Assembly: GCA_002238605.1 (NCBI GenBank)
Contig: MPMR01000023.1
Coordinates: forward strand, 1 to 63,888
Origin: BD2-11 clade cluster bacterium bin43
GTDB taxonomy: Bacteria > Gemmatimonadota > Gemmatimonadetes > Longimicrobiales > Gaopeijiaceae
Length of the DNA stretch: 63,888 nt
Direction: 5' to 3'
The notes under the pieces: generated by a model
The model's input: the letters and a program-made list of their open reading frames with translations, nothing else
What the model was told of the DNA's origin: nothing
Databases searched by the model: none
Program-made: the position numbers and the translations under genes
Part shown: piece after piece, positions 31,746 through 37,494 of the stretch
How the letters are laid out: every line of letters starts with the position of its first letter
Position numbering within the stretch: position 1 is the stretch's first letter

Positions 31746-31856
31746 CTGGTGCGGGGGTGTCGGATGGATCGGTCAGATGGCCTGAAGTAAGTAGCGCATG
31801 GCTCGGGTGATTCTACTACACCCGCAAGACGCCTGGGCTAACAGGCAACGTATTGC

Positions 31857-31892
31857 AATAGGTAGTTGACCAATTTTGCTCAATAACCTATT
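31857..31892. promoter_or_regulatory. Inverted repeat over the promoter of the ATPase/STAND operon
   Basis: AATAGGT (31857-31863) and ACCTATT (31886-31892) form 7-bp arms with a 22-bp spacer. They embrace the -35 element and overlap the -10 element, a position suited to a repressor site. Confidence 0.5.
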
Positions 31893-31894
31893 AT
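31866..31894 (+). promoter_or_regulatory. Near-consensus sigma70 promoter for the ATPase gene, probably leaderless
   Basis: TTGACC (31866-31871), a 17-bp spacer and TATTAT (31889-31894) match the primary-sigma consensus closely. The -10 element ends eight bases before the first base of the ATG at 31902, so transcription would start at or beside the start codon. No Shine-Dalgarno sequence is present. Confidence 0.65.
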
Positions 31895-31901
31895 ACCATC
31901 C

Positions 31902-33194
31902 ATGCGATACTTGGCTCCCTACCGGCGCCCTCATGTGGCCCGCCTGACCACCCTCCTGAAGGAGGATGGTCCGATGCGACTCGTCGCGGTCACGGGCCCG
32001 CGACAGACCGGCAAGACAACCTTGGTCCTTCAGGCGCTCTCGGATCTCGAGAACGACGGCGTTCCGTGCTGGTATCTGCCCGCTGACGACCCAACGCCGG
32101 ACGAGCCGCCCTTCGGCGCTCCACCTGCCATCCATGTCCTCATCCCTGGGCAAGTACCCGGGCCGGAGTGGCTCGTCTCAAGCTGGGAACGCGCCCGAAT
32201 CGCTGCGGAACGTTCGGCCCGCGGCATTGTGATGGTGCTCGACGAAATCCAGCGAATTCCGAACTGGTCCGGGGTCGTCAAAGGGCTATGGGACAGGGAT
32301 CGGCGTACCGGCTGTCCACTTCGCGTTGTGATCCTTGGCTCCGCTCCCTGGGCGATGTTGACGGGAATCCATGAAAGCCTGGCAGGCCGGTTCGACCCTT
32401 TCCCCGTAGCACACTGGTCGCTCGACGAAATGCAGCGCGCGTTCGGAGTGACCCTCGACGAGTACATCTTCTTCGGAGGCTATCCGGGCGCCGCCGTCCA
32501 CATCCGCAACCCTCGCAGGTGGCGAGGATACATCAGGCAGGCCGTGATGGCCCCCGTCGTCGAACGGGACATCCTCTCGCTGACACGCGTGCAAAAGCCG
32601 TCGCTCATGCGGGCGTTGCTGGACCTGGCCTCTGAGTATTCCGGCCAGGTTGTGTCCTACCGCAAGCTGCAAGGGCAACTCGATGACGCGGGCAACACCA
32701 CGACGCTGGCCCACTACCTGGACCTGCTCGCGGACGCCGGACTGGTCACTGGTCTGGAGAAGCACAGCGCCAAACCGCACCTGGTAAGGCGATCCAGTCC
32801 CAAGCTCAACGTATCGAACACCGCTGTCATGACGGTGAAGTACCCCGGTTCCTTCAAGCACGTCAAGTACGATGGCACCTTTTGGGGACGCCTGTGCGAA
32901 AGCACGGTCGGTGCGCACCTCCTCAACACGCTTTCCCCTGACGGGATCGTACGCCTGCAATACTGGAGGGACGCGACTTGTGAGGTCGACTTCGTGCTCT
33001 CGTCAGGGCGACGGCTGGTGGCGATCGAGGTGAAGAGCGGCCGCCGGCAAGGCAGACTTGCGGGTCTGGCGGCGTTCCAAGGCCGATTCCCGACTGCGAA
33101 GCGGCTCGTGGTCGGAACCGGTGGCGTGCCGCTGAACGAGTTCCTGTCCGAGGACGCCGAGTATTGGCTGGAGGAAGCTCACCGTGGCGATTGA
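31902..33194 (+). CDS. AAA_14-type ATPase with C-terminal DUF4143 domain
   Basis: The 430-residue protein has a Walker A motif GPRQTGKTT at 32-40, a Walker B region (IVMVLDEIQ, about 109-117), the family sequence FGGYPGA and the DUF4143 C-terminal domain. The latter includes EVDFVLSSGRRLVAIEVKSG, an ExK pattern reminiscent of a PD-(D/E)xK core that is usually inactive or uncharacterised in this family. AAA_14/DUF4143 proteins are abundant, often mobile and mostly without assigned function. Two relatives lie at 55180 and 56129 in this window. The last 11 bases overlap the next gene, so the two proteins are probably coordinated. Confidence 0.85.
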   Translation: MRYLAPYRRPHVARLTTLLKEDGPMRLVAVTGPRQTGKTTLVLQALSDLENDGVPCWYLPADDPTPDEPPFGAPPAIHVLIPGQVPGPEWLVSSWERARIAAERSARGIVMVLDEIQRIPNWSGVVKGLWDRDRRTGCPLRVVILGSAPWAMLTGIHESLAGRFDPFPVAHWSLDEMQRAFGVTLDEYIFFGGYPGAAVHIRNPRRWRGYIRQAVMAPVVERDILSLTRVQKPSLMRALLDLASEYSGQVVSYRKLQGQLDDAGNTTTLAHYLDLLADAGLVTGLEKHSAKPHLVRRSSPKLNVSNTAVMTVKYPGSFKHVKYDGTFWGRLCESTVGAHLLNTLSPDGIVRLQYWRDATCEVDFVLSSGRRLVAIEVKSGRRQGRLAGLAAFQGRFPTAKRLVVGTGGVPLNEFLSEDAEYWLEEAHRGD

Positions 33195-36100
33195 GCGAAC
33201 GGTGTCGCGATGGAGGGATGATCGATGGGAGTCGCTGGGCGAGAACCTGGCCGACTTTCGTTCGGCGCCTGCCTATGTCCTGCTCGGCGAAGCGGGGTCG
33301 GGGAAGACCACGGCGTTTGTCGGTGAGAGCGGTGATGGTGACAACTGCTGCTGCGTGACCGCCCGGCGCTTCATTCGTCGGGACCTTGGAAGCCACCCGG
33401 AGTGGAAACGGAAGACCCTGTTCATAGATGGGCTGGACGAGCAGCGTACCGGGGGTGGTGATCCATGTGAGCCACTGGACGAGATTCTGCGCCGGATCGA
33501 GCGGTTGGGCCAACCACGCTTCAGGCTTTCGTGTCGTGAGGAATCCTGGCTCGGGAGGAACGATCTCCGCGAACTCTCGTCCGTTGCGAGCGCTGGAGAC
33601 GTCCACCTGCTGCGGCTCGATCCGCTTAGCACGGTCGGCGCCCGCGAGATTCTGGCTTCTCTGAAAATCGGAGAGCCGGGCGACTTCCTATGGAACGCGA
33701 GCGACCGCGGGCTGGATGCCTTCCTTGAGAACCCTCTCCTCCTGGAGATGCTCGCCAAGGCGGTGACTCCCGAGTCGGCGGAACCGTGGCCCGACACCCA
33801 GCGAGCCACTTTCGAGCGCGCATGCAGGGAATTGGTCCAGGATCTGAACAGGGAGCACCGGGATGCATGGGACGGGACGCCGTATTCCGGCGAAGAGTTG
33901 GTCGCCGCAGCAGGTCGCTTGTGCGCCGTCATTCTGCTGTCCGACAAGCTGGGGTGGTCGCGGAGGGGGCCAGGTGATGACGACTACCCGCCGTTGAGCG
34001 ACGCCGGCGCGCCCCAGGAACTGCTCAAGTTCGCGTTGGACACAAGGCTGTTCGTCGGAAGCGCCGAGACCGGCAGACAGCCGCGCCACCGCCGGATCGC
34101 CGAGTTCCTGGCCGCAAGATACCTGGACGCGATGATCCGGGCGGAACTCCCCGCCACGCGGGTACTCGCACTGATGGCGGGCGGCGACGGGTTAGTGGCG
34201 CCCGACCTCCAAGGGGTGTCCGCATGGCTGGCGGCGTTGAACGGAGAGGCCCGTGATCTGCTGATCGACACGGACCCGATCGGCGTGGCATTTGGCGGAG
34301 ATGCTGGGCACTTGGATCAGCAGGAAGCCGAACGCCTCCTGACGCGGGTTGAGGACCGCCTCGAGTACAGGTGGATCATGCCGTCCCGGGCCTCCGTTGA
34401 CTCGCTGTTGGCGGGACCGGCCAGGACGCTGCTGTGGTGGCGGTTGCGTGATCCAGATCGTTCGGACGGGCGGCAAGCCCTGGTGGGCCTGTTGCTACAA
34501 GGGCTGGCGCCTCTTTCTGGTTTCGAAGCGGGATGGAAGCGGTCACCCCGGGTGAGTGCGGCCGAGGCTCAGGATCCGCTGCTGGCCGTCGTTCGGGACG
34601 ACACTTGGCAGCCTTACGTCAGGCAAATCGCATTGCGCGCTCTCATCCATGTGCTCCAGCCCGAGCCGGAGGGCCCGCGGGTACTGCTTCGCCTGCTTCG
34701 AGAGCTGTCAGATGGCCGAGTCCGGCGGGATGACCGGGACGAGCTGCGCGGTGAACTCTTGGCCTTTCTCTACCCGGCGCACATGCGCCCTGAAGTGATC
34801 TGGGACTACCTGCCGTCGAGCACCTTGCCGTCCGGCAAGGGGGTCTCATTCTGGGCCGGGGACTTGGTGGAGAAGTCATCCCCGGAGCAGATCAAAGCGC
34901 TCCTCGAAGGGCTGTTGAAAGAGCCTGAGGAGTTGCTGCCGGCTCTGAGTCACCGCAGGCTTGAGAGTGTGGTCTTCCGTTTGCTGGCACAAGCTCTGAA
35001 GCACTTGGGCGAGCAAACCGAAGTCGCAAAGCTGCTCCGGTGGTTCGGGCTGGTTGTGGCCGACCCCGAGCGAGCCGGGCTGGTGCTGGCCCACTGTCAA
35101 CATGTCCTCCGGCGATCCAGGCATACTCGGGAGCAGAAGGACATCTACCGTTGGCTCGGCGAGCATCCTGATATCCAGTTGGCGTTGATCCTGGAAGACC
35201 TTCGCCGAAACGAATCTCGACTTCAGGACCGCTTCCTCGATCGTGCGATCGGCAACAAGTTCCTGGGCGACCACGTTCCAGCGGACTTCCGTCGATGGTG
35301 TTTGCAACAGGCCATCGAACACGCGGAAAAAACGCCCCTTGTTGCGATCGGACTCCTTCGCTGGGCCACGATCACGAACGAGTCGTGGGGCTCAGCCCTG
35401 GACGACGAAGAGGTCGCTTACAGGATTCGCAGAGTGCCGTTGTTACGGGAGCGGCGCGAGCGGGTACTGGCAGCCGAGGCTCGGCACGCCGACGAGATGG
35501 CACGGCTGCAAGAGGCGCCTCCTTACTCAACCGTGCGAGAGCGACAGGCCAGCTACCTGGCGTCCATTCGCGAGCAACTTGCACCTCTGGAGGCAGGCGA
35601 AGGGCCCCCGGAGACGCTCCATGAGCTGGGACGCATCTATGTCAACGGCCTCGAAGCGGGCGGTCCCGACCAAGCACGAGCGGACCTGGATCTCCACCTG
35701 GGCTCCGACCACCAGCTCTTGGACGCAGTAGTCACCGGATTCCGTCGAATGGTGGGTCGAAGGGATCTTCCGGCCATGGAAGAAATCATTCGGCTCCGCG
35801 AGCGGCGGATGGCCTCATTGTACGAGCTTCCTTTTCTCGCCGGTCTGGCTGAGGACGAACGCGCCGGGGGGGAGGCGTTCGAGAGACTGGACGAAGCCGG
35901 GCTCCGCCGCGCATTGGCGTTCTATCTTCTTTCCCGGTTGCGAACCACGCGCCATCCAATCCCGGGACTCTTCAGTTACAAGGAGGACTGTCGACCCCAA
36001 TGGTACGGCCGGGCGCTTCGCGATCGCCCTCAAGCCGTCGCTGAAGTGTTCGTCGCGGTGAACCGCGTTCGTCTGCGGGCCAAGGAGTTGCCGGATCAAC

Positions 36101-37389
36101 ACCTGTACGACATGGCTGTGAAGGATGAATACGCCGCTGTAGCCCGGTCTGCTCTTCCGAGGTTGGTCACGCCATTCCCAAATCACTGCGCTGGGGATGC
36201 CCAACTGACCGCGCTGCACCAAGTGTTGCTCGCCGCAATCAGGCACATCCCGGATGAGCTGAACGAACTCGTCTCGGGGAGGCTGGCCCGGCGCGAGATG
36301 GATTTGGCCCAACGGGTCTACTGGCTGGCCGCGGGGAGTTTCGTGGCGCCCGACGAGTACCTGCCACGTCTGATCGACTTCCTCTCGGTAAGAGAGGAAG
36401 CGAGAGTCCACCATTTGGTCGACTTTCTGGTGCCGGTGACCACACCGCTACCCAACCAGGAGTGGCCAAACGCCCATCTGGCCGGGCTTGTCAGGGCGGT
36501 AGGAGCGAAGCTGCATTCACCGTGGGACGATGTCCCCGACTCGACCAATCACATTATGGGTGGCGACAGCACTGCCACTGGAATCAAGGCGGAGTCCCTT
36601 GTGAACGGGTGGATCGAGACTCTGGCGCACCGGATGAACGGCGACACGACCGCCGCGCTCGCTGACTTGGCAGACGATCCCGCCTTGACGAAGTGGAGCG
36701 GTAAGCTCCGGCGAGCCCGCGACGAGCAGGCCGAGCGACGGCGGGGTGTGACGCGGCGAGCGCCGACCGTGAGCGAGGTGCGCGAAGCGCTACAAGGCGG
36801 GCCTCCTGGCAGCTCGGCCGACTTGGCCGCGCTGGTAGCCGAGAGGTTGTGCCACCTGGGCAGGCGAACCCGGGACAGAAGCAGCGACGCCTGGATTCAG
36901 TACTGGCACACGGATCGAAAGGACCCCAAGGGCAGGAGGGTCATTTCGCCGATGCCCGAGAACGCCTGCCGGAGGGTGCTGATGTGGGGTCTGGAGCCCC
37001 TGCTCGAACTGCATCGCGTTGTGCTCAGCCAGGATGAACAGGTTGCCGAGGGTAGACATCCCGACATCATGGCGCACCACCATCCGTACGCCGTGCCCAT
37101 CGAGATCAAGCACACCGCCAGCCCGGATCTCTGGACCGCCGCAAGCGATCAGCTGCACGAACGATACTGTCGCGACCCCAGATCCGATGGCTACGGCATA
37201 TACCTGGTCTTCTGGTTCGGTGCCGACCACCTGAAGAAGCCTCCCCCGAGCGGTCGCCGTCCGGAATCGCCCGGCGAACTCGGGAATCAGTTGGAGGCTG
37301 CGTTGGCCCCGCAACACCGACACAAGATCGAGGTGATGGTGATGGATGTAAGCGAGCCAGCGGGACGCAGGACGGGATCGCCCCGGTGA
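33184..37389 (+). CDS. NACHT/STAND-like NTPase with C-terminal PD-(D/E)xK-like nuclease domain
   Basis: The 1401-residue protein begins with a P-loop NTPase: Walker A LLGEAGSGKTTA (33-44), a NACHT-type Walker B KTLFIDGLDE (77-86), RFRLSCREESW (112-122) and ENPLLLEMLAKA (about 182-193). A very long alpha-helical middle (about 250-1200) follows, with no motif I can name; HEAT or TPR-like repeats are possible. Near the end, HPDIMA...VPIEIKHT gives D1294, E1307 and K1309, a PD-(D/E)xK arrangement, followed by DGYGIYLVFWFG. STAND ATPases fused to nucleases are classic antiphage or conflict proteins. The GTG start overlaps the upstream gene by 11 bp. No transposase or phage genes adjoin it. Confidence 0.7.
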   Translation: MAIERTVSRWRDDRWESLGENLADFRSAPAYVLLGEAGSGKTTAFVGESGDGDNCCCVTARRFIRRDLGSHPEWKRKTLFIDGLDEQRTGGGDPCEPLDEILRRIERLGQPRFRLSCREESWLGRNDLRELSSVASAGDVHLLRLDPLSTVGAREILASLKIGEPGDFLWNASDRGLDAFLENPLLLEMLAKAVTPESAEPWPDTQRATFERACRELVQDLNREHRDAWDGTPYSGEELVAAAGRLCAVILLSDKLGWSRRGPGDDDYPPLSDAGAPQELLKFALDTRLFVGSAETGRQPRHRRIAEFLAARYLDAMIRAELPATRVLALMAGGDGLVAPDLQGVSAWLAALNGEARDLLIDTDPIGVAFGGDAGHLDQQEAERLLTRVEDRLEYRWIMPSRASVDSLLAGPARTLLWWRLRDPDRSDGRQALVGLLLQGLAPLSGFEAGWKRSPRVSAAEAQDPLLAVVRDDTWQPYVRQIALRALIHVLQPEPEGPRVLLRLLRELSDGRVRRDDRDELRGELLAFLYPAHMRPEVIWDYLPSSTLPSGKGVSFWAGDLVEKSSPEQIKALLEGLLKEPEELLPALSHRRLESVVFRLLAQALKHLGEQTEVAKLLRWFGLVVADPERAGLVLAHCQHVLRRSRHTREQKDIYRWLGEHPDIQLALILEDLRRNESRLQDRFLDRAIGNKFLGDHVPADFRRWCLQQAIEHAEKTPLVAIGLLRWATITNESWGSALDDEEVAYRIRRVPLLRERRERVLAAEARHADEMARLQEAPPYSTVRERQASYLASIREQLAPLEAGEGPPETLHELGRIYVNGLEAGGPDQARADLDLHLGSDHQLLDAVVTGFRRMVGRRDLPAMEEIIRLRERRMASLYELPFLAGLAEDERAGGEAFERLDEAGLRRALAFYLLSRLRTTRHPIPGLFSYKEDCRPQWYGRALRDRPQAVAEVFVAVNRVRLRAKELPDQHLYDMAVKDEYAAVARSALPRLVTPFPNHCAGDAQLTALHQVLLAAIRHIPDELNELVSGRLARREMDLAQRVYWLAAGSFVAPDEYLPRLIDFLSVREEARVHHLVDFLVPVTTPLPNQEWPNAHLAGLVRAVGAKLHSPWDDVPDSTNHIMGGDSTATGIKAESLVNGWIETLAHRMNGDTTAALADLADDPALTKWSGKLRRARDEQAERRRGVTRRAPTVSEVREALQGGPPGSSADLAALVAERLCHLGRRTRDRSSDAWIQYWHTDRKDPKGRRVISPMPENACRRVLMWGLEPLLELHRVVLSQDEQVAEGRHPDIMAHHHPYAVPIEIKHTASPDLWTAASDQLHERYCRDPRSDGYGIYLVFWFGADHLKKPPPSGRRPESPGELGNQLEAALAPQHRHKIEVMVMDVSEPAGRRTGSPR

Positions 37390-37494
37390 ACTGGACCATC
37401 AAGGCCATACACGCCGCGTAGGCATCAAGGTCTCGGGCAGGAACGGCAAGGATTCGGCTCGGTCGTCTGGCTGTCATCCGTCACGGCTCTTACC

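Follow-up and report, generated by a model that had tools for sequence, protein, structure and literature searches.

Positions 31902 to 37389 of the window (the whole 63,888-nucleotide stretch of DNA analysed here) carry two overlapping genes that we read, with a probability of roughly 0.4, as a self-regulated, NLR-like, DNA-cleaving defence cassette in which a DUF4143 ATPase would act both as an operator-binding repressor and as a partner of the receptor. The broader reading, that the receptor is an NLR-type nuclease of conflict or defence with a genuine DUF4143 partner, is probable. The open reading frames, their motifs and their pairing are not products of chance, as they are conserved in tens of genomes. 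What is new, as far as the literature was searched, is the conserved coupling of the two genes, their fusion, their joint insertion and a family-specific candidate operator.

Domain architecture of the gene pair

Gene 1 (31902..33194, forward strand) begins with ATG and encodes 430 residues, while gene 2 (33184..37389, forward strand) begins with GTG and encodes 1401 residues; an ORF check recovered both frames and the 11-bp overlap between them that a first-pass annotation of this DNA had described. The gene 1 product matches the AAA_14 profile (4.5e-18; residues 26-177, 31977..32432, forward strand) and the DUF4143 profile (1e-22; residues 221-380, 32562..33041, forward strand), and it is a member of the PDC-S01 family, as it matches the PADLOC model PDLC04791 over residues 7-422 (2.5e-141). 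It also contains a PD-(D/E)xK motif (E333, E361/D363 and E376-x-K378), which within the DUF4143 domain appears, judging by sequence pattern, to be preceded by a wHTH-like stretch. In 50 aligned proteins from paired loci, the Walker motifs and residues E361, D363, E376 and K378 vary little or not at all. By frequency, PDC-S01 reportedly ranks fourth among the defence candidates of prokaryotes, and it is listed as a single-gene candidate without validation or a validated role (PMC12988326). Gene 1 departs from that listing, as it comes with a receptor-nuclease gene and with a candidate operator specific to the family. Many other DUF4143 proteins are found alone, without a receptor, and the domain reportedly comes up in a paper about Thermus Argonaute. 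At two loci a more distant DUF4143-like ORF adjoins the pair (L020, 25-1299; L132, 562-1743), as if such ATPases cluster.

The gene 2 product is an EruA-like NACHT receptor. The Walker A (LLGEAGSGKTTA) and Walker B (FIDGLDE) motifs and residues D1294, E1307 and K1309 were found where the first-pass annotation had placed them, and the STAND/NACHT fold that it proposed is seen in the predicted structure of residues 1-430 (33184..34473, forward strand), which was modelled at a pTM of 0.84 and comprises NACHT, winged-helix and HD2-like elements. This model matches NLRC4 over 379 residues (Z 22.2, rmsd 4.3), and NLRP3 and NOD2 match as well; by sequence, the Pfam NACHT profile remains below its threshold (12.3 bits vs 26.7). 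The first residue of the model aligns with NLRC4 residue 133, at the NACHT module of that protein, which leaves no space for an effector at the N-terminus, in agreement with the earlier suggestion that the effector lies at the other end. Residues 431-1179 (34474..36720, forward strand) are presumed to form a helical sensor, judging only by their position and by homology to EruA.

The C-terminal domain (36790..37386, forward strand) is likely a DNA-cutting domain of the PD-(D/E)xK type. Residues 1180-1401 were modelled at a pTM of 0.77 as an alpha-beta3-alpha-beta core that holds the D...E-x-K motif, which upholds the nuclease-like assignment of the first-pass annotation, and PD-(D/E)xK nucleases account for nearly all of the top-ranking PDB chains (Can2 with a Z of 7.4, PaqCI, BglII and EcoRV). 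Taken alone this fold match is moderate, since all Z values are below 8 and no Foldseek E value is below 0.001, but it is strengthened by the invariance of the motif residues: D1294 and E1307, as well as E1259, Q1323 and Y1328, are invariant in 38 aligned full-length relatives, and K1309 is conserved in 37 of them. Searches with gene 2 gave no significant Pfam assignment, no relative of solved structure in the PDB by sequence, and among phages nothing beyond a 14% C-terminal match.

Relationship to EruA and other NACHT proteins

Gene 2 shares full-length homology and the NACHT-to-C-terminal order of domains with EruA, which NCBIfam describes as a NACHT domain-containing antiphage protein. Residues 20-1390 align with positions 16-1318 of the 1318-position EruA model NF058535 (4.2e-210), and the score of 701 bits misses the curated equivalog cut-off of 1000 bits. 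A second copy in the same genome reaches 914 bits, and two relatives exceed the cut-off: a solo plasmid-borne one (L059, 1189.6 bits) and a paired one on a viral contig (L065, 1031.9 bits). The relatives above the cut-off carry the same conserved nuclease-like motif as gene 2. The plasmid EruA relatives, L059 among them, stand alone, whereas gene 2 is accompanied by a DUF4143 ATPase gene and the dyad described below. The match to HyoA (NCBIfam NF058534) is far weaker and only partial (9.8e-26), making it a distant cousin; a literature search for EruA and HyoA found no paper describing them.

The logic of a NACHT/STAND NTPase joined to a PD-(D/E)xK nuclease is shared with bNACHT25, bNACHT32 and Avs-type STAND proteins. 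In bNACHT25 and bNACHT32 the effector is N-terminal (PMC12169576), as it is in the Avs type, whereas in gene 2 the NACHT module begins at residue 1, the nuclease-like domain is C-terminal and a partner gene is present. The first-pass annotation knew of no described system with this combination. With regard to the DUF4143 pairing that judgement stands as far as the literature was searched; the union of NACHT and C-terminal nuclease is already catalogued as EruA, and PDC-S01 is already a listed candidate. PADLOC, which it had proposed as a check, assigns gene 1 to PDC-S01 and has no model, Avs included, that matches gene 2.

Conservation of the pairing

Relatives of gene 2 occur in 35 of the 395 genomes covered by our Gemmatimonadota search, and every intact receptor gene with enough upstream DNA is immediately preceded, on its own strand, by a DUF4143 gene. 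The same pairing is found in a second phylum, that of a Rhodothermales MAG (G400), and on the viral contig L065, and overall there are 48 distinct DUF4143-receptor pairs with near-constant spacing; both the operonic link that the first-pass annotation proposed and the conserved co-occurrence that it named as a check are thus borne out. Where no intact partner is visible, either a contig end truncates the locus (L004, L006, L032 and L115, among others) or the copy is a decayed fragment (L007 and L037), and in one case (L123) the partner frame is broken in a near-copy of an intact pair (L124). The receptors diverge to 21% identity with the pairing kept. The two proteins show correlated pairwise distances (r 0.916, with none of 5000 permutations as high), a result for which shared descent alone could suffice.

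Outside these pairs, the partner can be missing. Seven plasmid EruA relatives that were inspected are solo (one each from Pantoea, Bradyrhizobium, Agrobacterium, Burkholderia and Dolichospermum, and two from Vibrio), and an EruA-like gene on the viral contig L066 also lacks the partner. The first-pass annotation had held that homologues occurring consistently without the DUF4143 gene and outside defence regions would speak against its proposal. This applies only in part: solo homologues do exist, but some of them sit beside defence-type genes (Ppl and Abi in Pantoea, SIR2 in Bradyrhizobium and TIR in Agrobacterium). In the receptor tree, which is unrooted and contains few solo sequences, the paired forms occupy one side of a single branch (SH-aLRT 99). 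The partner is therefore not obligatory across the family, and pairing marks one branch of the receptor tree. A DNA search of E. coli genomes with the Pantoea relative gave no match. As L065 (paired) and L066 (solo) are both IMG/VR contigs, viral or proviral DNA may be a vehicle for either form.

These data bear on whether the two genes could be independent single-gene defences that by chance share a promoter and move together. That both types also occur alone is what such a reading expects; however, the pairing requires a single change on the tree, has outlasted the deep divergence of the receptors at near-fixed spacing, and is accompanied by the gene fusion described below, and we regard this explanation as quite improbable.

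Fusion of the ATPase to part of the receptor

Nine distinct proteins join a DUF4143 ATPase to a segment corresponding to receptor residues ~782-1202 (35527..36789 in gene 2, forward strand), with both the NACHT and the nuclease domain absent. Most are ~870 residues long (eight span 862-890 residues and one is cut short), and they form one group (support 99) within the paired-form part of the DUF4143 tree. The fusion suggests that in the two-gene form the ATPase contacts this part of the receptor. No exact TTGAGTA dyad (see below) lies upstream of the fused genes, so the candidate operator is not universal. One fused gene (L057) is preceded by another inverted repeat of greater length, GTAAGCTAT...ATAGCTTAC, perhaps an operator that has diverged.

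The fused proteins also bring to the fore a reading in which both products are effectors or form a sensor-effector partnership, the DUF4143 ATPase being a second nuclease or a DNA-loading motor recruited by the NACHT receptor; the dyad would then just tune expression, perhaps through another binder. The physical teaming that the fusion suggests fits this proposal, as does the completeness of the Walker and PD-(D/E)xK motifs of gene 1, which are conserved in the 50 paired proteins and whose active-site columns are intact in all 19 fused sequences of the alignment. Yet many DUF4143 proteins stand alone, and the dyad accompanies DUF4143 genes even where there is no receptor, which points to self-regulation. 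On balance we find the co-effector proposal doubtful.

A dyad in the promoter of gene 1

Immediately ahead of gene 1 lies a block that is kept among divergent copies (three relatives). It contains a dyad, commonly TTGAGTA-N4-TACTCAA, located at a near-fixed distance from the start of the DUF4143 gene. In the window the operator-like dyad is TTGACCA-ATTT-TGCTCAA (31866..31883, forward strand), a clade-specific form in which six of the seven base pairs between the arms match. In the clade of the window, GCA/TGC has replaced GTA/TAC in the two arms (L011), and such a matched change speaks for recognition of the dyad as such. The window dyad covers the -35 element of a promoter-like site, TTGACC-17-TATTAT (31866..31894, forward strand), and ends 18 nt before the ATG, which itself follows the -10 element by 7 nt. 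The promoter-like pattern is weak evidence when taken alone (one found against 0.6 expected).

The exact dyad occurs 14 times in the 395 genomes, as compared to zero for a reversed control, and 11 of the 14 copies lie just upstream of DUF4143 genes (ten by coordinates and the eleventh, L201, by direct reading). In the genome from which the window derives, a search allowing up to one mismatch returned a single match, upstream of its second pair. The dyad is also present upstream of a group of stand-alone DUF4143 proteins of ~407 residues, and Thermus and Collinsella DUF4143 homologues are preceded by TACTCA-containing sites or dyads. Upstream of position 923 of L194, a Collinsella plasmid, two nested or tandem dyads of the ACTCAGTATACTGAGT type precede a stand-alone DUF4143 ATPase. 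No dyad was found upstream of solo EruA genes. Because it occurs with stand-alone DUF4143 genes and is absent at solo EruA genes, the dyad goes with DUF4143, and most simply DUF4143 proteins would be what binds it. Many pairs of the second phylum and some in Gemmatimonadota show no clear dyad. In viral contigs the exact dyad occurs in at least 120 stretches, a number to be read against the large size of the collection, in which chance copies are expected; none of the 80 such loci examined had a DUF4143 ORF.

Insertion of the cassette

The two genes and their promoter, and nothing more, make up an extra 5.6 kb in the window (31822..37461, with no strand assigned; its borders are placed to within a few bases). 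Nine congeners lack this segment at the orthologous intergenic site, where ~31751-31820 is joined straight to ~37465. The GC content of the inserted segment is 64.0%, as compared to 67.7-68.7% in its flanks, and neither terminal repeats nor an integrase were seen at its borders. The cassette is best read as a mobile two-gene unit. The insertion starts right after an inverted repeat, GTAG(TAG)...CTACTAC (31790-31820), which lies between an ECF sigma gene and an amidohydrolase gene and is kept in all of the empty congener sites that were read; it may be a landing site. Elsewhere in the genome of the window there is another pair, divergent from the first (L002), as well as a fusion (L003), and some genomes hold several divergent copies. 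A toxin-like gene with a PIN domain (PF01850; L002, 969-1454) adjoins the second pair. The window pair lies outside any defence island, its neighbours being an ECF sigma/FecR/TonB system and the amidohydrolase, and few of the genes neighbouring other pairs are defence genes.

Such housekeeping surroundings would suit a chromosomal pair for DNA processing or repair with no part in immunity. This we consider very unlikely, given the patchy distribution (35 of 395 genomes), the empty orthologous sites, the several divergent copies in some genomes and the homology of gene 2 to a curated antiphage protein.

That a single genome of the genus carries the insertion is also what would be expected of an addiction module akin to a toxin-antitoxin system, in which gene 2 would be a toxic nuclease and gene 1 its neutraliser and repressor, the cassette mainly maintaining itself or its element with any effect on phage being secondary. 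The antidote-first gene order, the gene overlap and the palindromic candidate operator over the -35 element are in line with this account. Against it, the insertion in the window carries no mobility gene, solo EruA relatives persist without a partner, so that no antidote is needed there, and autoinhibition is the norm for NLR-like sensors. We therefore think an addiction module unlikely.

Proposed mechanism and implications

In the defence cassette reading that we prefer, the long middle region of the EruA-like receptor would sense a cue of infection, the receptor would oligomerise through its NACHT module in the manner of NLRs, and the clustered C-terminal PD-(D/E)xK domains would cut DNA, so that either the phage or the cell dies. 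The putative winged-helix part of the gene 1 protein would sit on the palindrome in the shared promoter and hold expression low, and its ATPase/nuclease body would dock on the C-terminal part of the receptor's middle region, either keeping the receptor inactive or licensing its nuclease. The receptor half of this scheme draws on what is established for NLRs and bNACHT proteins (PMC12169576 for the version with an N-terminal nuclease), and the regulator half on the dyad, the fusion and the gene order; we infer DNA cleavage, dyad binding by the gene 1 protein and contact between the two proteins from these comparisons. A role in defence, most likely against phage, is suggested by the full-length homology to the curated antiphage protein EruA. 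The reading is weakened by the position of the window pair outside a defence island, by the solo EruA relatives that lack the ATPase, and by the score below the EruA cut-off.

A wider and more tentative idea concerns the PDC-S01 family as a whole. Its DUF4143 ATPases could be STAND-like regulators that bind operators of the TTGAGTA-N4-TACTCAA type, and in one large lineage they may have been recruited as a subunit that guards and represses an NLR-like receptor ending in a nuclease, such that loss of guarding or of operator binding during infection would both derepress and activate the receptor. Alongside the curated EruA, the pair described here shows an NLR layout that is inverted, in that the effector follows the sensor, and that is accompanied by a partner protein. 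The shared operon, the fusion, the joint insertion and the DNA site specific to the family link PDC-S01 to an NLR-like receptor, and a very common and unexplained bacterial family thereby gains a job that can be tested.
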